From Citrus sinensis (lineage: Eukaryota > Streptophyta > Magnoliopsida > Sapindales > Rutaceae): a stretch of DNA of 64,000 nucleotides. Shown here in pieces: positions 17,543 through 32,974 of this stretch. Numbering within the stretch: the stretch's first letter is position 1; each line of letters begins with the position of its first letter. The stretch spans positions 33,939,001 to 34,003,000 of the forward strand of contig NC_068560.1 in the NCBI RefSeq assembly GCF_022201045.2, read 5' to 3'. The position numbers and the translations under genes were made by a program. Below the pieces are notes generated by a model. It was not told where the DNA came from. It did not search any database and saw only the letters and a list, made by a program, of their open reading frames with translations.

Positions 17543-20375
<2,833 letters not shown>

Positions 20376-20730: not shown

Positions 20731-23700
20731 TCAAATAGACTTCTCTGCCACCTTAATGTAATAACCTTTGCCAAATCCCATTGTTGGTGCTCGAATGATT
20801 TCCCCAGGCTTCACTTGAGACCAGCTTTAAAAAAATTGAAAAAAATCAAAATAAAAAGGTTAAATTCTTAAATCTCTTGTGGCGCTCAAATAATGGCAGA
20901 TAAATGAAAGCTCATCAACCTGTATTTCGTGGCCAAGACGTTAAGAAATAGTGTCAATAACACTTTACTGAACTCAGCACCAGGGCATAGTCTTATTCCT
21001 TCACCAAATGGGATGAAATTTTTAGCGGAGGTGACATTGTTTTCTGCCAAATGCTGTTATAAGTAGCATCATTTATCACTCACAAGCCAAATTTGAGGAA
21101 TTGTGTATTTGTCGCACGAGTTTGATACAAAATGATGCAACCTTCCATCTCCATGGATTAAACACAAAAGGGTCTGTGTACGTTTCTGGGTTCAAGTGAA
21201 TCGCTGATGGAACAACCATTATCGTCCAGCCTTCCGGGATTGTATATTCTGCAAAACTAAGGTTCCACTAAATAAAAGGGTTATTTTCAGGGACCTCCCC
21301 TGAGGTTTAGTGTATTTACAGTCGGATAGAAAGTATGCATGTAATTACAGGGACCTCCCCTAGCGTTAATACAAAAATACGTATAACGTTATTATAAAGG
21401 GCAAATACGTAAAATTACATTTAAAATTAAAAAAAAAAACAAAATTCAAACGAAACTTGCTTGGATGTCTGGAAACTAAAGACACGAACTCCCTATTACC
21501 CAGTGACTATCGTTACCCAACAGACAAACGAAAATGAATTTTTTCAGAAAATGCACTCCACTTCAAGACACAACTTACACAAATCGTTGGAGAGCTTACA
21601 GCCTTACACAACAAAACCCAATTTCATTTTCATCGTTGGAGAGCTTACACAACAAAACCCAATTTCATTTTCATCGTTGGAGAAGAAGCAATCACTGATC
21701 TGTTTTCATCTAATGCACGAGATGACATCGTGCGGTGGTCCAAAGCTTCCACGAAGTGAGCATCGCCGACGGCCAGTGTCTGTCGCGACTGGAATTGGAT
21801 CACAAAAGAGGTTAGTCTTCGAAATACAGCTTGCTTCCTTGAATTAATGGCTTACGGCTTTTGTTGATTAAAAATAACAATGGGTCTGTTTCAATTAATG
21901 AATATGTTGCTAGATGTTGTTTTTATTTGGGGTTGTTGGTGTTGAGTTGAAAATGTGTGATAAAATGGGTCTGCTTAGCTGGGCGATTGGTCCTGTCATT
22001 TGCTGAATTATTAATAAGTATTATTAATTGTTTATGGACAATGCGTGATAAAAAAAATTTGAGATGAGCTGCCGAAAATATGTAGTATGCTTGTTTGAGG
22101 GGTGCAAATATGGTATTTTTATGCTGTAGCAGTTCATTTCACAATGTTTTGTTTTTCATTTAATATTTTATAGTGACCACATGCACCGACTTTAACCTTA
22201 CAGCTTAATTTACATGGACATAGAAGCTGTTGTGAGTGGTAAAATGGTTAATGTTGCACATGTCATTCCAGAGCAATACACATTGAAGAAGTTGTGGGAG
22301 GATGTGAAGGATGTTTGCTTTGATTTGCCTGTATATGAAGCTAAAGAAGTAAGGTTTGAAGTGCTGCTACCTTGGGAAATATTGAATATGAGTTTAAAGA
22401 CTGACTCAGACCTACAAGATGCATTCAAGAAGTTAAGGAATAAGCATTACTCTTGGGCAATGTTTGTTATCAAGACTGAGTTAGATAGTAAATCTGTTTT
22501 GAGTGTGCAAAATCAGAAGAAAAAAGCTCCATTTGATAAGTTTTCAGTTACACAATATGCTGAACCTGAGGTAGATTGGTCTGACTTTGCTGCGGAAAAT
22601 GAATTTACCTTGCCTGATTTAAATGCTGAAACCTCCAATGCTGGCGCTGGGGTTGGAGTTAATATTGACGGTTTGGATTCTGGTGACAGTGACGAAGAGT
22701 TTGATTATGTCAATGAAGATAAATGGGATGCACGATTGGATGACTATTATTCAGCTGACGATAGTGGGGCAGATTCAGATGCTGGTGATGATGAGAATAT
22801 TGTATCAGCTACTTGCAATTACGAGGCAAATTCTGGTGGATTTGAGTTCACCCCTGATGGTGCAAATATTGTACTTAAAATTGGGCAATTATTCAAGACA
22901 GTTGATGAATTTAGAAATGTTGTGAAAGTTTTTGCAATAAAGGATGGTTTTAGGCTTAAGAGGGTGAAGAATGAAAAGAGCAGGGTGACACTTAATTGTG
23001 CAACTCCAAGATGCACTTGGAGGATACATGCAAGTCCAAATTGGAACAAAAAACATTTTCAGATCAAGACTTACATGCCTGAACATACTTGTGAGAGAAA
23101 CAATGAGAATTATGAAGCAAATTCAACATGGATTGCAGCCACATATCTCCATCTATTTAGAAGCAACACACAACTCCCCATTGATGTGCTTGGCTCAGAA
23201 CTTTTCAGAAACTATGGGATAAAATGTTGCAACCAGAGACTGTATAGAGCCAAGAATAAAGCCTTGGAGTTGCTCGGTCAAGATCACAAGGCTAGCTTCA
23301 CAAAGCTGTTCAGGTATATGAATGCTATCTTATCCTCTAATCCCGGTTCAACAGTCTCGTTAGAAAAAGATTGGTTAGGTGGTGGGGTGAATCCTCATTT
23401 TAAATTTTTTTTTGTGTTTTTTAATGCTAATAGAAGGGGATTCTTTGAAGGTTGTAGGCAATTTATAGGTGTAGATGGTTGTCACCTTAAGGGTCTGTAT
23501 AAAGGGGTCCTATTGTCTGCTGTTAGTGTAGATGCCAACTATGGCATATATCCGTTAGCCATGTGTGTAGTAGACAGTGAAAACACTGAGTCTTGGACTT
23601 ACTTTATGGAGAAACTGTATGAGCAAATAGGCTGTAATGGTGGTGAGGGTCTTTGCTTTATGAGTGACAGACAAAAGGGGATATTGAATGCTCTTGAGAG

Positions 23701-26700
23701 GGTTTTTCCTTATGCTTTAAAAAGGTACTGTTGTAGGCATATTTATTCAAACTTCAAGCAAAAATTTCCTGGTATGTTGCTGAAAAAAGAATTCTGGGCT
23801 GCATGTAGAAGTGCAAATCAAGTTGATTTCAATAACCATATGGCTGAAATTTATAGTATCAGCCCTGCTGCTCACAAATGGTTGTTGCAAATTCCAGTGG
23901 TTTGTTGGGCTAAGCATTGCTTCCCTGTACAAATCAAGTGTTCGCATGTCACAAACAATATGACTGAATCCTTTAATAATTGGATCAGTAACTTCAGAGG
24001 CATGCCCATTGTGAGAATGCTTGAGGAGATTAGAAGGAAGATTATGATATTGATACACAAAAGATATGAGCAGGCCAACACTTGGCAAGATGAGCTGCCT
24101 CCACTTGTTCGGAGGAAGGTTATAGAAGAAGGGTTGAATCTAGAACATTGTCAGTTATCTTTGGTCATGACAAAACCTTTGAAGTAATGGAAGATATTTC
24201 TAAGAGGTGTGTTGTTGATTTAGGCATGAAGCATTGTGATTGTAGGGAGTGGGATGTATCAGGCTTACCTTGCAAGCATGCCATGTGCTGCATTGATGCA
24301 ATGAGATATAACGTGAATGATTACATCCATCATTTATTGAAGAAAACTGCATTCAAGAAAACTTATTCTCACCAGCTGCATCCAGTGCCTGATGAAAGCA
24401 GATGGCCTTTACTTTTGCATGATAATCTGTTACCACCACTTGTCATAAGGGCTGTTGGTAGGCCTCAAACCAAGAGGAAAATGGAGGCTGGTGAAAATAA
24501 GACATTTAAGAGGAGCTCAAGCGTAAGGTGTTCTAAATGCGATCAGTGGGGCCACAATGTCAGAAGCTGCAAAGTTACTGAGAGAGGGGGAAAAACTAAG
24601 AAATTTCTGAAAAAGAAAGTCCATCAGGTCATATTTATTCATTGTTTGTAATTTTGGTGTATATTGCTTTTATTATAAATTGTGTTATGCTAATCCATTA
24701 TTTAATTGTCTACATATAGGATAAAGGAAAGTCATTGGGATCTACTACTACTACTGGTTCTGTGAATCTCAGCCAGAATAGTGTCCATGGAAATGGTATG
24801 TAATCTTGACAGCATGTTTTAACTTACATTCAGTTGCTGCATTAGCTTAATTAGAATAATAGTTTTTTTTTCATGATTTAATACAACCACAAGTTACGTT
24901 TTAATTTGTTTACTTTAATCATGAAGGACAACTTACTCAGGAGTGATCACTAGTAAATTAATGCATCCAACAGCATTGAAAACATCAAGCTGTACTTACG
25001 AAGTGAAGACAGCAGAAGCCAAGCTAATCCCATCTAACAAATTTTTTTGAGGGGTTAGATGATGCATCACCTTAAATTGTAAGCATTAGAATGATAAAGA
25101 TGTTGTATCATCTTTTTGTCACTCAACCATAGATATAGGTTTGAGTTTTTGTTTATTTTGTACTTGTGATGTTTATGTATAAACACACATGCTGCTACTC
25201 TATACATTGGCTACTGCTGATTTGTATAGGTTGATCGAATTCAGCCATTGATGACATTTGATACTGCTGGAATGCATATAAAATTATAAGTTAAAGTATA
25301 TTATTTGTGTTATTCATTATGCTTTTTGTTATTGATCTGATTTTGCTTCTTATGGCGTTTGTTGTTGGAATGAATATTAGATGTCAGTATGAAGTAGCTT
25401 GAGCAGGGGCTTTTACTTTTATTGTACTTGATATTATTTACTTATTATTGTAATTATCACTTATCTATCATATATATGCTAATGTAGTAGTGCATATAAG
25501 GAGTTCGGCTAGATTTCATTGATATTATAGGCTTCCAACTAGGTTTTGCCACATTTTTCAGAGATGGGTTACATGAGCTTCTTAAGTGTTGATACATAGC
25601 ATTTGAAAAGCACCAGAACAACTACACTTTACTATAGCCTTTCATAGATATAGATAGGATTACATAAGCTATTACATCTTAAGCATTAGTAGATTGAGTA
25701 TAAAGAATGTTAGATTCAAGTACATCATCATCTTCACAGCCCCTTCACCAAATCTAGATTTTTGTAACTTCTTTACTAGAGTCTTCACTTCATTCACATT
25801 AGCTTCAATAGCATGCAGGGCATCAACATTCACAATTGCAGTCATATTTCCTTCAAAAAAAGCTCCATTGTTGAAATCATTCCTTTCTGGAACCCACCAC
25901 TTGAAGTACCCACAGTTTGTTTTGTTCATGCATTTATAGTAAAGCTTGTGAGGGTTGTTATCTGATTCAGATATCTTTACTTCAGCTCTCATACGGCATT
26001 TGCATATACGGTTTGAAAACCTAATGAGCTTTCCATTAACAAAGTTCCTCCAAGCTGGCTCATAAACTTGTTCCATGGTTGATGTGCTTGATGTATTAGA
26101 GCTTTGAGAATCCATGGCTTTCAGGCAGTGTTTGAGCTTGATTTTTTTTGAATGATTTTGTTGATGAGTTCAACTGAATGAGTGATCAGTTTGAACAAAT
26201 TGCAGAACCAAAGTTTTTAAGAATTTTTTAAAAGAAGTAGAAGAAGAAGAGAGTGTGCTATGGTGATTTATTAAGCCTGCAAAAGGCTCCATTTATAGGC
26301 TCTGCTGCTGAATATTACCGTTTATTTACAACGGTAATATTGGCAGAAAAATGTTTATTTTTTTTAGTGTGTAATTTTTTTATCCATTGGATATTTTGGT
26401 GTGTAATTTTTTTTTATCCATTGGATATTTTGGTGTGATTTCTATTATCCATCAGTTTATCATATGAATCAAAATAGATTTTGGCGGGAGGGGCATTTTT
26501 GGAATTTAAATAGTCAACTGACAGTCCATTTAACGGAACACTAACACCAGGGGAGGTCTCTGTAATTACATGCATACTTTCTATCCGACTGTAAATACAC
26601 TAAACCTCAGGGGAGGTCCCTGAAAATAATCCCTAAATAAAATTGAACTTGTCGCAAAATTATAATGAGAAAAATAAGAGTATAAATACCCTTTATTTGG

Positions 26701-28314
26701 ATATCTTTTATTGCTCTTCTTAAGAACCCTGGTACAAAATTACCCATTCTAAGTACTTCATTGATCACCTGCACATTACCAATTATGTCTAAATCAGAAG
26801 AATTTCGGAAACTAATCCATTATAAAAAGAAAAATAAACTCATGCCTCACTTGTTTTGTAAAAGTCAATGATCTGAATTCCTCCCATGTCATCGCAGTTT
26901 CCACACTCCTCTTTTGTACAATTTCCTTATTTTCCCTCTGGAAGGTGACATAGAAAATAAGAAATAATTTTTAAATGCCCATCGAGGCTCAAGCTCAGCA
27001 CAAAAATGTAGAAGAAAATACCTCCAGCTCTTGCACCACCAAAGGATGTTGAGTAAGTAGCATCACGGTCAAAGTTAAAGTGGTTGAGATTGTCTCAAAT
27101 GTGGCAAGCAGAAGGCCAAACATCATGTAAGAAATGAGGTCACTTGTTAATAGATTGTTGTTTTTCATGTCCTCCACAATGAGCTCTAGGAAGTCCCCTC
27201 TTGTTCTTTCTTCAGGCAACTTTGCTTGCCGGTCCTCGATCATCATCTTCATAATCTTCAATGTACTTTTTTGCTTCTGAACATAGAAATTAGTATTACG
27301 ACTTATTTTTAATATTTATGTTCGACCTTAATTTACCTATCAACTTTAGCTTCCGGTTCTCAACAAACAATTTTTTTTTAAAGCGGAAATTATTACCTTC
27401 AAGCACCGATGGTAGGTGGTGCCTGGGATGTTTAAGGGTAAAGACATAAGCCCTTCGAAAAAATGGGTAAATTCTTCAGCTTGAATTTCCCCATATTTCA
27501 CAGGATCATAGCCAAAGAGATGACTCATTGTGAAATTTATTATCATCTGCGATGATGCACAAAATTTGAACCTGAGCAAACAATACTGGTTGGTGATTGG
27601 TAAATAATCAATAAAATGCAATATAATGAGGCAACTGACCACCGTACAAGCATGTTTCAGTTCAACAAAATTCTGGGTTGTCCAATTCAGTAAGGCTTGA
27701 TTGATCATTTCTTGCAATTGAGGCAAGAGCTTCGCTTTCAAATTTTGAGGACCGAATTGATCAAAAACCAATTTCTTTAGACGCTTGTGAATGGAGCCAG
27801 CAATGATGCATGAACCATCTTTGACTGAGCCACTTAGGCCAACAAGCCTAACAAAGGAGTCCATGTACCACAATTCCACCAGCCTCCCTTCTTGTTGAAG
27901 AATAAAATGACTGATATCTGGATCAGATGACACCACAACTGATCGACCAACCAAGCTCGTCTGAAACAAAGGTCCGTATCTGAGATAGAAATTAAACCAA
28001 AAAAGAAGGGGAAAAAAAACAAGAAGCTAAATTACTAGGGTCCAATTAACATATACCGATCTATAACAAATAAAAGAATTGGTATAAGGCGCGCGCGCGC
28101 ATACAAACGCATACTTATTTATTCTGGATTTTAGAAATGAATGAAGATCTAAAGACTTGCTGGGGATAAAGAATTGGATGGTTTCTCCAATGAAAGGCAA
28201 GCCCATGGAACCAGGAGGGAGCCTTATTCCTTTGCTTGTGGGGTTCCTCCATTTATGTGAGCAATAAGTCATGGCTATGATGATCACTAAGGGTATTATA
28301 CAAATGGACCACAT
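20731..28314 (-). CDS. Cytochrome P450, CYP87-like, with a transposon in intron 6
   Basis: Haem monooxygenase anchored to the ER; CYP87 members act on sterol- or triterpene-type substrates, but the substrate here is unknown. Nine exons: complement 28115-28314, 27640-27979, 27397-27546, 27022-27276, 26851-26937, 26690-26768, 21142-21248, 20920-21053 and 20731-20824, joining in frame to 481 residues. Seen: an N-terminal anchor, the PPGSMGLPFIGE hinge, I-helix ATFET (288-292), ExxR (Glu348, Arg351), the FNPWRW stretch and the haem loop FIPFGEGIRLCPG with Cys429. All splice sites read GT-AG. A 5.36-kb MULE sits in intron 6, about 20 bases upstream of the exon 7 acceptor. Every exon is open, so I call the gene intact, although splicing across the insert is not assured. 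The start of exon 8 is the least certain junction. Confidence 0.85.
21269..21277. repeat. MULE target-site duplication, left copy
   Basis: TAAATAAAA, repeated exactly at 26634-26642. Nine bases is the standard size for Mutator-like elements. Confidence 0.93.
21278..21369 (+). repeat. Left terminal inverted repeat of the MULE
   Basis: Begins GGGTTATTTTCAGGGACC. The word CAGGGACCTCCCCT occurs twice inside it, about 57 bases apart, and the same doubled word is present in the right end. Such paired words are candidate transposase-binding sites. Confidence 0.9.
22214..24944 (+). CDS. MULE transposase (mudrA-like), frame interrupted
   Basis: The enzyme that cuts and moves the element. A 657-codon frame (22214-24187) holds an N-terminal PB1-like region, an acidic linker (about 140-200), the Mutator DNA-binding domain (about 220-295, with Cys/His zinc residues NCATPRCTW and PEHTC) and the MULE catalytic core, where IGVDGCHLKG (about residue 420), FMSDRQKG (about 483) and the CCRHIYSNFK motif are visible. 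The SWIM zinc finger (CDCREWDVSGLPCKHA) and a CCHC knuckle (CSKCDQWGHNVRSC) follow in another frame from about 24148, so one frameshift near 24145-24165 separates core from finger. Two short downstream exons fit: 24720-24795 and 24930-24944, ending TGA, with GT-AG introns. Whether the frameshift is real, a sequencing error or bridged cannot be told. The start at 22214 is the first ATG of the frame. Confidence 0.88.
25672..26115 (-). CDS. GRF-type zinc-finger protein carried by the MULE
   Basis: A 147-residue protein inside the transposon, convergent with the transposase. Residues 38-74 fit the GRF zinc finger (Cys38, Cys40, then YYKC with Cys62, Cys68 and the closing CGYFKWW). GRF fingers bind single-stranded nucleic acid in other proteins. 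Residues about 96-120 are heptad-like and may form a coiled coil. The C-terminal MMMYLNLTFFILNLLML (about 129-145) is hydrophobic and may be a tail anchor. Small plant proteins with this layout are known; their function is mostly unknown. Its place near the right end of the MULE resembles maize mudrB, to which I see no sequence likeness. It could be a captured host gene or a true accessory gene. The frame is open from ATG to stop. Confidence 0.8.
   Translation of the reverse strand: MDSQSSNTSSTSTMEQVYEPAWRNFVNGKLIRFSNRICKCRMRAEVKISESDNNPHKLYYKCMNKTNCGYFKWWVPERNDFNNGAFFEGNMTAIVNVDALHAIEANVNEVKTLVKKLQKSRFGEGAVKMMMYLNLTFFILNLLMLKM
26543..26633 (-). repeat. Right terminal inverted repeat of the MULE
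   Basis: The reverse complement begins GGGATTATTTTCAGGGACC and matches the left end at nearly every position for about 90 bases. It is followed by the target duplication TAAATAAAA at 26634-26642. Confidence 0.9.
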
Positions 28315-29054: not shown

Positions 29055-30967
29055 TTACAGGCTGAGTTCCCTATTAAAAATCCAGCTAAACTTAACGAGA
29101 GGCGGCTTCAGCTTCTTGGCTCGCTGATCGGCTAACTCCTGCAGTCGCCTAATCCTAGGCGCTAAGCCGCACACAAACTCTTGTGCACGTCTCCCTTCAC
29201 CCGTCAAGCCTTCCAGCTTTTCCAATCCCCACCGTCCAATCAAAAACTCTAAAATATCCGCATAGTCATGTGCCGTATACACGCCAAGCCGCTGAGCCAC
29301 TGCCGCAAAATGCGCAAACAGCCGTGGGTCATGCCCATCGTACATCAAGTGAGCTGGCATTGTGATTTTCTTGTTCATCAGATCAGCAATTGCGATCATG
29401 GCACCCGTGGGATCCACTTCAAGGAGCTTTTCGACGATCCTAGCGTAGGCGTTTTCGTGGCGCTTCTCGTCTGATGCAATGGTTCCACATATGCGCGCGA
29501 GCACTGGATCACCTCCCTCTTTCGACAGGCGGGCCGTGTTGCCGTGTGATATGAAAGTGGCGCGCTCTTGAAACGATGTGTAAACAAAGCCCAAATACGG
29601 GTTGTTCTCTGTCCCAGGGTCCTGTTCGGTAAATTAAAATGCCCATCTTGTCCTTAGTTATCAATTAAAATTAAAGAAAATAAATATTTCCAGTCAATTA
29701 TACCATACAAGATACAAGTCCAGATGATTTTAACTATAATTTACGCTAATTTATTATATTGATCCTTAAGGTTTAATCAAATTGCAAATGACAATATAGT
29801 TTATAGTTTTTTTAATTTGAGTCCCTCCCATATAGAGGTGGCAAAAATACAAGTCCGAACCCCACTAGGGCACTGTGGGCCGAATATGAATCCATGCCGA
29901 TCTTAGACATCACTTGATAAACCCGAAACTCGAATTATATTAAAAAAATACTATAAAATTATATTATTTTAAATATTTATATTTATTTAACTCATTTATC
30001 ACATGTATATAAAGTTTTTAGACACTTAAATTTATATTTTCATGTCAAATTTTATTAAAATAAATTTAAAATTTATAAAATTACCAAAAAATATATATAA
30101 GCCGGACTTAAAAAAGCCGACCCAAGTTTTGCCAACCCTAGTGCCATAATGCCATTAAATTTCGGTAATAAATTCAATAGCGTAAAACTGTATAAGTCTA
30201 TATTTAAATCATGGATTTATCAATAATTCAATATATAAAATTAAATTCTGTTATTAGAAATTATGGATTAGACTCTATGGACCTGTATGCCCAGAAAAAA
30301 AAGAGAGTACTAATTTATAATTTTACTAAAATTCCAAAAAAAATTGCAGAAATTCACTCACCATGCCAGCACTGATAAGATACTGGACAGTCTTCTCAAT
30401 CATGAGCATATCGACCCGACCCGACAAATACAAGAAGCTCCTGAGCAAATCTCCATGGCGGTTTTCCTCAGCAGTCCAGGAGCGGTTCCAAATAGCCCAT
30501 GGGCTGGAACTTGCACCGGTCTCATCTCTGACACCATCGAGCGTATTAATCATCGTCTGATAAGTGGGAATGGCGTCTTCAGTGATCATGTCACCCACCA
30601 GCACAACAAAGTAATCGTCAGGTAGCCCCGCAGTGCGTTCACGTAGGGCCCTGACTTGGTCAGTGAAGTCCGAAAAAGGCAGCGTCGGATCGGGTAAGAA
30701 GTCTTGGGGCTGCCAGCATTTCTCTACTGGTTTGAGTAATGGTAACACGTTATTGGTGGCCCAGGTTTCTAGTGACTTGAAGACTTCGACTTTTTCGGGT
30801 GGCATTGAATGTGTTTTTGGTTTCGGTGGTGCTGCGACGGCAGAGATTTTCCGGAATCGGACGGTGGAGGATGCGGCGGTTAGACGATTGTGGGCGGGAT
30901 TTGGGACAAGTGGAGAGCACGCAGCAGGAGGTTTGGTGGAAGTGACGAGAAACTGAGAGGCTTGCAT
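29055..30967 (-). CDS. Stearoyl-ACP 9-desaturase, plastid (AAD6-like)
   Basis: Soluble diiron enzyme of the plastid that puts the first double bond into stearoyl-ACP, using ferredoxin and oxygen. Two exons, complement 30362-30967 and 29055-29621, give 390 residues, the usual size. Diiron ligands are all in place with family spacing: Glu130, Glu168 and His171 (EENRHG), Glu221 (FQERA), Glu254 and His257 (DEKRHE). Residues 1 to about 45 are rich in Ser, Thr and Ala, as in a plastid transit peptide. I chose the Met at 30967 because TATTTATA lies 90-100 bases upstream; an in-frame Met at 31102 would add 45 residues across that site. A small hAT-like element lies in the intron. From memory, its neighbour pair with TED6 is kept in Arabidopsis (At1g43790/43800), which favours the AAD6/FTM1 branch. 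Confidence 0.93.
29834..30141. mobile_element. Small hAT-like MITE in the desaturase intron
   Basis: About 308 AT-rich bases with short inverted ends: AGAGGTGGCAAAA at left, and at right AGGGTTGGCAAAA as the reverse complement. Flanking 8-base words TCCCATAT (29826-29833) and TGCCATAA (30142-30149) agree at six of eight positions. No coding capacity. The weak duplication suggests an old insertion. Confidence 0.45.
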
Positions 30968-32974
30968 GGTGGTGGCACTTAGCACAGGGAGTGTGCGTCT
31001 TTTTCTTGAACTGGTTTTGTGACTTGTGAGGAGGCTGGCACTGTTGGGACCAGGGGGGTATAAATAGAGATGTAGTCTGAGAATTGAACCCTTCTTTTCC
31101 ATTTAATCACAATCATGCCATTACAGAACTAATTATAATCCCTACTTAGAATGAAACTTTTAATTTATTTTTAAAAGTGAAAAAAATGAGAGGCAAATTA
31201 AGATTTATAATAATTTAAAAATATTTTAAAAATATTATTTTACGAAGAATGACCAGAATATAATTTTAAAAAATTTGATAATAAAAAAAAAGTGAATAAA
31301 GAATATTAATTAATCAGGGGTGATTTGGAGATGAATTGAAACTAAATCCCGGGATGCGAAAGTGTTTTAAGTAGTGGAATTTGTAAAACCAGGGGTGCAG
31401 TGGTTTCAACTTTCAACTTCTAAAGGGACGGAGAGGAATATAAAACAAGTGATGATTGATTCTGTGGGTTTGAAAACGAGTCAAGTGAATTGGTGGCTGT
31501 GTTTTAGGATACCAAATGACAGCGCATTTCTTGTTCTTTGGTAACATCGAATTTTTTTTTTTTAAAAAAAAATTAATTATTGATTAAACGACACTTAACA
31601 GTTGCAATTTTATTTTATTTTTTTTCCAGTAGGTGGGATTGCTGTTGAGTGTGGACACTGTCGTTGAGATCTGGTCAAACTCTGGTTGACCGTTTATTTC
31701 GAGTTCTTTGATTCGCATTTGCAAATAATTTGCGGCATCATTGCTCATTTTTACGATTCGAAATGACATTGACACATACTTCAGCTTTATCCTGCCCTAC
31801 ACCATCTTAAAGTCCCCCAAGTCAAGAGAGAACAACTAGCGTCTAATTAATATAGCGGTTTTCAAAGTTTGCTGGCGTCAATTTTTAATTAGAAATTTTA
31901 AGGATAAATTAAAAAAATGTACATATTTTAATTGATATAATATAAAATAAAATGTTATGTATCAAAATTTATGCATTTTTATCTTTTTACTTATCCATTT
32001 TAATATGTTCAAGAAACCTGATTAAAATATTATCCCAGCTTACTAACATTAATTATTATCCAAGAACATGCCTAAATCTGGCATATCCCTTTAGAACTAA
32101 ATATCTTTCTTCTGTTTTCCTAGGATGCTGATGATGTCAAATGATATACGTGAAATATGAGATTAACATTTTGGACCAAGTATCAATTATTGTGGAAATT
32201 ACATGGCACAACATTTAGCAAGTTTACATACAAATATATGCATTAAAAATGACTCTTTTTTTTTAAAAAAAAAAAAAGTATTACATACATGAACAAAAAC
32301 TAAAATTTCATCCTTTACACACATGTAATTAGAGTTCAAACCTTATACTTCTCATATCACCATATATAAGAAATTTCACTGTTTGAACCAACTATATCGC
32401 ATCTAATCCCACAAAAAAAAAATGATTATAAACAAATGATCCAGTTTGTTCAATCAAGAGAAATTTTCATCATCCCTAAGAACTCAAAATTTTCCAACTA
32501 ATAACGAAGAGATTCCACATGACCATCAATTAAGTTGAGCACTTGGAAATCTCTTGATTCTTTTGCTTCCATATTTTCCACGTGGAAGAATCAAAGAAGG
32601 AACTTCAAACAACTATGGGAGAATGATGTTAATGTTGTCACTTTGATTTAGGACCGCCCACCAAACTAGAGTTACATCTTACCTCAATTAATATTGTGCT
32701 AGCAAGGCATTATAAAACATGGTGTATTAGTAAGTGAAGATTTTGATCGTCATAATTAATGATTCTGTTAAAAGTAATTAAGCTTCTACTTAGCCATTGA
32801 ATTTTGGCCCACAACAAGCCATAACACTATTTGTCCGTTGCAGTTTTTATTAATATCATAAATAAATACGATAACAAATAAACAATAATGTGAACATGAT
32901 TATCTGTTTCAAAGTTTTTGTTTAGTGTGTATTTACTACTCATCATCAATCGTGTAATTAGTTAGGCCTTATGT
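30968..32974. other. Intergenic, desaturase to TED6-like
   Basis: AT-rich with no gene supported. The part next to 30968 is the desaturase promoter and the part near 32974 the TED6-like 3' UTR. A 63-codon minus-strand frame at 31584-31775 looks faintly protein-like, but I cannot place it in any family. Confidence 0.4.

Follow-up and report, generated by a model that had tools for sequence, protein, structure and literature searches.

A convergent GRF zinc-ribbon gene as a probable inherited second gene of Mutator-like elements in Citrus sinensis

Why should a Mutator-like element (MULE) carry, opposite its transposase gene, an intact gene for a small protein with a GRF zinc finger? The question is raised by a 5.36-kb MULE at positions 21278-26632 of the window, that is, of the whole 64,000-nt stretch of the Citrus sinensis genome analysed here (C5:33939001-34003000; the genome searched comprised 300 Mb in 11 contigs). 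The first-pass annotation had offered two answers, either an accessory gene resembling mudrB of maize MuDR in a separate MULE lineage, or else the capture of a host gene. The best explanation of the findings described below is that the GRF gene is an ancient component, a second gene that plant Mutator-like elements have passed on with the transposase and that selection on the element has kept. The accessory-gene part of the earlier proposal is supported by copies sharing the terminal inverted repeats (TIRs) of the window element and by the ratio of nonsynonymous to synonymous substitution (dN/dS), whereas the gene is not peculiar to one lineage but runs through several. The association with transposases, the convergent orientation, the constraint and the co-divergence are computed results, and that the gene is a conserved accessory gene of MULEs appears highly probable.

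The element itself has the long TIRs and the target-site duplication of 8-11 bp that mark a MULE. Over 86 nt its TIRs are 97% identical, and measured from the element ends they extend over about 91 nt, in good agreement with the roughly 90 bases claimed earlier. The sequence CTAAATAAAA flanks both sides, and a length of 10 bp fits the duplication best; three other copies with the same TIRs (two full-length and one 1.7-kb non-autonomous) each possess a perfect 10-bp duplication of their own, which leaves the 9 bases originally given one base short. The transposase matches PF10551 (5.9e-20), PF03108 (3.6e-15) and PF00872 (6.4e-7), the MULE domain included, and is frameshifted, with a main frame that stops at 24187 (break near residue 641-657, window 24140-24190), leaving the window copy without an intact transposase frame. 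Because a 99% identical copy on C8 holds an 818-residue frame, the transposase family nevertheless has an open copy. The GRF frame, by contrast with the transposase frame, is intact; it runs against the transposase as annotated, and residues 37-73 of its product score 33.1 bits (E 6e-8) with PF06839 (GRF), for which the cut-off is 25.9.

Is the GRF gene a regular passenger of this element or an accident of one copy? A search of the genome for the window TIR, in which 40 of 220 candidates were scored, returned 15 TIR pairs and 10 single TIRs. Three of the 15 pairs, each about 5.3 kb long, enclose one transposase match and one GRF match on the same side, the remaining 12 (0.9-13.7 kb) enclose neither, and no copy with a transposase and without GRF was found among the 15 pairs from these 40 of 220 candidates. 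Compared with the window protein, the GRF protein of the C8 copy is 100% identical and that of the C9 copy 99% identical with one in-frame stop. The best GRF matches elsewhere in the genome adjoin MULE transposases. Since the gene is present in all three transposase-bearing copies with these TIRs among the candidates scored, its dN/dS lies well below 1 (see below) and its nearest relatives adjoin MULEs, a one-off capture in the style of Pack-MULEs is rejected and the accessory-gene reading supported. The 12 pairs devoid of coding matches, of which eleven measure 0.9-2.2 kb and the last 13.7 kb, resemble non-autonomous derivatives of the window element's family, and one such pair, C8:6410212-6411935, has its own 10-bp duplication.

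Does the association reach beyond the immediate relatives of the window element? GRF and transposase queries, each drawn from four groups, were run against the genome along with the Pfam GRF and MULE models (the GRF groups are A, MuDR-type; B, FAR1-like; and two further MURA types, C and D); these searches are intron-blind, and the genome-wide counts refer to the loci listed and are lower bounds. After merging, at least 322 GRF and at least 274 MULE loci were listed. A GRF gene lies within 5 kb (edge to edge) of 144 of the 274 MULE loci, at a median gap of 1456 bp, and 143 of these 144 pairs are convergent, the sole exception among the loci listed being a divergent pair at C8:22.02 Mb whose members are 4.85 kb apart. 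When MULE loci were instead shifted at random along the chromosomes (300 rotations), the mean was 3.5 pairs (maximum 11; 0.84 convergent). The paired fraction was 47/64 and 37/45 for two of the query lists and 49/150 for the best Pfam MULE matches listed, a 150-row list that presumably includes domesticated FAR1/FHY3- and MUSTANG-like host genes.

The pairing extends over MuDR/MURA-type and FAR1-like transposases, and a convergent GRF gene accompanies transposases that are only 33-37% identical to that of the window. This applies to L031 and L033, elements of about 6.2-6.4 kb with transposases 36-37% identical to the window's, and to L054 (34%), all three of which are bounded by TIRs (113, 136 and 134 nt, respectively) and perfect 9-bp duplications. 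L032 likewise combines a MULE transposase (MULE 1.9e-37) with a convergent GRF gene, having a weak TIR only (52 nt, 79%) and no established duplication; its tentative label 'FAR1-like' reflects a FAR1 match below the cut-off (20.1 vs 28.1 bits) and the strong MULE match. An extra small frame was seen in L031 (3214-3576, minus) and L033 (2861-3232, minus), downstream of the transposase and on its strand; with no match to a Pfam family (best 0.06), it probably represents either a third gene or one more exon of the transposase.

If the gene is inherited with the transposase, what do the sequences of the two genes say about selection and common descent? The Nei-Gojobori method (NG86) was applied to 25 chosen GRF pairs, and in all 16 pairs with synonymous divergence (dS) of at least 0.33, drawn from groups A, B and C, dN/dS was 0.16-0.38 with upper bootstrap limits of 0.34-0.63, as expected under the purifying selection that had been suggested as a check. 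The tree distances of transposase and GRF correlate strongly (Mantel r 0.892, reached by 0 of 10,000 permutations) across the 24 elements with both genes in hand, among them L048 and L049, whose transposase pieces, interrupted by 8 and 2 stops, have long branches. Restricting the comparison to the 17 elements of groups A and C gave r 0.882 (0 of 10,000 permutations). Four clades recur in both trees (L007-L008-window, L012-L013, L017-L018-L019-L034 and L033-L038-L039), and a mild conflict involving long branches concerns L040, which joins group C in the 17-row GRF tree (89/90) but not by its transposase. GRF branches are longer than transposase branches, a possible reason for similarity among such genes having escaped notice.

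What kind of protein is maintained in this way? The GRF proteins follow a common plan: a Ser-rich N-terminus leads into the GRF zinc ribbon, after which come a linker that is helical and often of coiled-coil type and, at the very end of the chain, a single hydrophobic segment. The four zinc-binding cysteines named in the first-pass annotation (Cys38, Cys40, Cys62 and Cys68) are invariant, together with an Asn-Pro pair (window Asn54, Pro55), in 19 of 19 aligned proteins of the four groups, at a mean column identity of 27%. PF06839 scores exceed the 25.9-bit cut-off for the window, L031 (39.8), L033 (35.3) and L032 (27.2), and fall below it in group C (23.5 and 24.8) and for L079 of group D (18.6), L078 giving no match. 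In a PDB search with the family profile, the best solved relatives were the GRF domains of NEIL3 (7omk, 1.9e-6; 7jl5, 8.3e-6). For 31 of 31 full-length proteins, the most hydrophobic 19-residue stretch has a mean Kyte-Doolittle (KD) value of at least 1.65 and leaves no more than 8 residues between its end and the C-terminus, so that by hydropathy each has the single segment close to the C-terminus that is typical of tail-anchored proteins. This set omits the window itself (L001), the identical or one-residue-different L002 and L003, the short frames of L015, L024 and L026 that stop before the tail, and loci without a motif-passing frame (L004, L006, L009-L011, L014, L016, L020-L023, L025, L027-L030 and L042); L032 enters it by its GRF frame. 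Both group D proteins have the same C-terminal segment, and of 11 control open reading frames (ORFs) of 100-180 residues in the window only one passed the rule. This plan is that of a tail-anchored membrane protein, with membrane anchoring predicted from hydropathy, and it is likely that the GRF product is a membrane-anchored nucleic-acid binder; we would grant the same likelihood to the joint statement that it is such a binder and the gene a conserved accessory gene.

Is the place opposite the transposase reserved for GRF genes? Eight MULE loci without a listed GRF gene (L075-L082) were inspected. Two of them, L078 and L079, turned out to harbour diverged GRF genes (group D) missed by the earlier queries. 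L075 (C3:40823300-40827400) and L076 (C6:10270600-10274700), which share 73-74% transposase identity with the window element, have a convergent Ulp1 gene (Peptidase_C48, 4.3e-21 and 1.5e-9), L080 (C5:156000-159000) has a convergent gene with a domain of the RNase H1 N-terminal type, and L081 and L082 showed no second gene in the 3.2 kb inspected. At L077 (C1:1270300-1273300), a FAR1-like MULE, an 11-residue GRF remnant beside a frame that looks by eye like a copia polyprotein was seen in the GRF place. Genome-wide, the RNase-H1-type gene gave at least 48 matches at 41 loci and was found within 5 kb of 15 MULE loci, convergent at all 15 and at none of them together with GRF (among the loci listed); it stands in for GRF in FAR1-like MULEs. 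The full-length proteins of L083 and L084 (124 residues) match PF01693, the RNase H1 N-terminal / Cauli_VI type (5e-16 and 1.1e-17), and the tails of L083-L085 contain a strong hydrophobic segment (KD about 3.1) 5 residues before the end. Elsewhere the genome abounds in Ulp1-like sequences (at least 150; 150 of 296 candidates were scored), and of the closest 14 of these 150, which were checked for neighbours, five are convergent with a MULE transposase at no more than 2.6 kb, none of the five being GRF-paired. The Ulp1-bearing loci related to the window element are L075, L076, C1:15.746 Mb, C2:9.603 Mb and C9:16.316 Mb. Other second genes thus replace GRF, in a mutually exclusive manner, in a few sublineages.

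A second head of nucleic-acid-binding type, joined to a similar tail and found in the same slot, would suggest that the element needs a nucleic-acid binder at a membrane. It is conceivable, albeit somewhat short of an even bet, that plant MULEs are generally two-component systems, in which a transposase is accompanied by a convergent tail-anchored nucleic-acid binder with a swappable head (GRF or RNase-H1 N-terminal) while the slot and the tail are kept. mudrB and the ORFR genes of Abermu elements (for details, see below) would then be diverged occupants of this slot, and many proteins annotated in plant genomes as 'uncharacterised GRF zinc finger' would belong to transposons as accessory proteins and not to the host. 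If so, Mutator transposition, or its escape from silencing, would generally involve a membrane-anchoring step that has gone unrecognised.

What might a membrane-anchored GRF protein do for the element? The gene is mudrB-like in position, and a biochemical role may be proposed for its product. GRF proteins might oligomerise via their linker, with the tail inserted in the endoplasmic reticulum or nuclear envelope and the zinc ribbon facing the cytosol or nucleoplasm; the ribbon could bind DNA that is single-stranded or forked, at ends of the element that have been excised, are gapped or are being replicated. The protein would in this way hold the element or the transposase complex at the nuclear periphery or the endoplasmic reticulum, and such tethering could assist in insertion or in the repair of ends, which is what mudrB is credited with. 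We put this role in tethering and insertion forward tentatively, as the preferred mechanism among those considered, with the odds somewhat against it.

A silencing suppressor comes next, and is unlikely though worth stating in full: a membrane-anchored binder might act like some viral suppressors and sequester RNA-DNA hybrids or the precursors of small RNAs, or it might shield the element in another way, like VANC in VANDAL. Convergent genes can give rise to double-stranded RNA that would silence the element, and the layout is convergent in 143 of 144 pairs; moreover, the alternative head belongs to the RNase H1 N-terminal / caulimovirus protein VI domain (PF01693), and the RNase H1 N-terminal domain generally binds double-stranded RNA or RNA-DNA hybrids. 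VANC and Ulp1-bearing KIU proteins are reported as anti-silencing factors of MULEs; the available text of the same source does not, however, present VANC as a membrane protein with a zinc ribbon (PMC13317346). Somewhat less credible still is a regulator of the transposase, in which the GRF protein would retain the transposase or its mRNA at the endoplasmic reticulum and limit its activity (dosage control). The coiled-coil-like linker and the tail would fit a membrane tether, and the evolutionary coupling to the transposase would fit a physical partner, but a self-limiting factor should be lost more easily than the observed constraint suggests.

Could the gene instead have been captured repeatedly and independently from a host GRF gene by different MULEs, and be kept as a passenger? 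Gene capture is known for MULEs (PMC9168764, PMC6446971), and the slot evidently accepts other genes, given its Ulp1 and RNase-H1-type occupants; yet the uniform side and orientation (143/144), the plan shared by 31 of 31 proteins, the agreement of the trees (r 0.89) and the strong constraint make this most doubtful. The least probable reading, a host gene family beside which MULEs merely land, could appeal to the 178 of 322 GRF loci without a transposase within 5 kb (among the loci listed) and to L094, an intact GRF gene with no transposase within 4 kb downstream (convergent transposase pieces were found at L093 and L095, the other two inspected among the intact GRF loci without a listed transposase), but is refuted for the family overall by GRF genes that four elements (that of the window, L031, L033 and L054) enclose within their TIRs and duplications, by near-identical GRF genes in independent insertions with their own duplications, and by the rotation control (3.5 pairs vs 144). 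Individual solo GRF loci may still be host-adopted. The idea of a chance ORF was set aside on the grounds of dN/dS, co-divergence and the rotation control.

Several observations weigh against a conserved second gene inherited with the transposase, or against the details of its predicted product. All comparisons were made within one genome. Nine close GRF pairs are uninformative, with dN/dS of 0.32-0.65 where defined and neutrality not rejectable, and one close pair has three nonsynonymous and no synonymous changes. Besides the solo GRF loci just mentioned, GRF is missing from the surrounding 5 kb at 130 of the 274 listed MULE loci, and 101 of these 130 belong to the 150 best Pfam MULE matches. 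The GRF gene is replaceable, because inspected unpaired loci hold Ulp1 (two), an RNase-H1-type gene (one) or nothing (two), and since Ulp1 is a protease, a replacement gene need not share GRF biochemistry. As regards the protein, the C-terminal membrane-like segment noted on first inspection is there (mean KD 1.67) and is weak when the window protein is taken alone, 49 of 1000 shuffles equalling it. The possible coiled coil noted with it is plausible and its signal modest (heptad score matched by 8 of 300 shuffles), and across the family linker heptads beat shuffles (no more than 15/300) in just 10 of 17 proteins. The AlphaFold2 single-sequence model of the window protein is poor (predicted local distance difference test score, pLDDT, 52.3; predicted template modelling score, pTM, 0.26), with only two C-terminal helices, 97-119 and 121-145, modelled with reasonable confidence. 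Even so, the GRF gene looks like an overlooked working part of these MULEs.

The features of the window element are collected in Table 1. The element was apparently inserted in a cytochrome P450 gene on the minus strand (window 20880-21267 and 26640-28314, by eye), with P450-like PERF and heme-binding motifs to its left and more pieces to its right, also by eye; a Pfam search with two ORFs on the right, the P450 candidates, gave no match. The host neighbours are an alcohol-dehydrogenase-like gene (PF08240, window 18661-20375, plus) and a fatty-acid desaturase gene of the acyl-ACP type (PF03405, window 29055-31102, minus).

Table 1. Features of the Mutator-like element and its GRF gene, in window coordinates
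Feature	Position	Strand	Basis
Left target-site duplication, CTAAATAAAA	21268-21277	none	10 bp
Left terminal inverted repeat	21278-21368	+	TIR search and element ends
MURA transposase, main frame, 657 residues; MULE, DBD_Tnp_Mut, Transposase_mut	22214-24187	+	ORF list and Pfam
Remaining transposase, second frame; SWIM zinc finger, CCHC-like knuckle (by eye)	24148-24651	+	ORF list and Pfam
GRF second gene, 147 residues, intact, convergent to transposase	25672-26115	-	ORF list, Pfam, genome matches
C-terminal hydrophobic segment, residues 127-145	25681-25737	-	Hydropathy; structure model
Predicted helix / possible coiled coil, residues 97-119	25759-25827	-	Heptad test; helix in low-confidence model
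GRF zinc ribbon, residues 37-73 (Cys38, Cys40, Cys62, Cys68)	25897-26007	-	Pfam and alignment
Right terminal inverted repeat	26542-26632	-	TIR search and element ends
Right target-site duplication, CTAAATAAAA	26633-26642	none	10 bp

How does this second gene compare with known systems? Outside transposons, its closest counterparts are the GRF domains of NEIL3, APE2 and topoisomerase 3, zinc ribbons of the same family with a C-x-C-type and a C-x(n)-C pair of cysteines. Those ribbons belong to large repair enzymes that are not known to possess a tail anchor, unlike the small, stand-alone GRF protein of MULEs. Binding to single-stranded and forked DNA has been reported for the GRF domains of NEIL3 (PMC9266487). 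Small GRF proteins in plant annotations may be transposon genes.

Among MULEs, a description of a GRF second gene, in these or other transposons, was not found in the open-access library searched, and may exist elsewhere; the extra MULE ORFs named in the available text of one account are mudrB, mutB, vanB and vanC, with no mention of 'GRF' there (PMC6446971). Maize MuDR, with mudrB and its product MURB, offers the same two-gene layout by position and description, a convergent second gene lying inside the TIRs as the GRF gene does in the window; mudrB is reported to be needed for insertion, by a biochemistry that these sources give as unknown (PMC6446971, PMC9168764). The Ulp1 MULEs Kaonashi and KIU also carry an extra gene in reverse to the transposase (PMC2528002, PMC13317346), which by contrast encodes a protease and not a zinc ribbon, and KI-MULEs are described as non-TIR elements. 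The function of the second gene has been an open question since mudrB, such genes being regarded in the sources at hand as special to a few elements. Now that the second gene has a domain that can be recognised and a probable membrane anchor, and that many lineages within one genome offer intact copies, the question becomes testable.

The nearest described relative is the uncharacterised ORFR of Abermu, a group of MuDR-related elements of barley and other grasses. Like the GRF gene of the window, ORFR lies antisense between the transposase gene and the 3' TIR; it too evolves faster than its transposase (Ka/Ks, the nonsynonymous-to-synonymous ratio, 0.39-0.56), and Abermu elements make 9-bp duplications (Gao et al. 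2022, PMC9168764). The two differ, as far as a comparison by description allows, in that the available text of that paper names no domain, tail or function for ORFR and does not contain the term 'GRF'; ORFRs are also reported there to be without similarity to MURB (PMC9168764). Did the second genes descend from a single ancestor, or were they acquired independently? The authors of ORFR left this open (PMC9168764), and the co-divergence of GRF genes with the transposases of MuDR-type elements, seen here within one genome, provides a candidate answer to their question of one ancestor.
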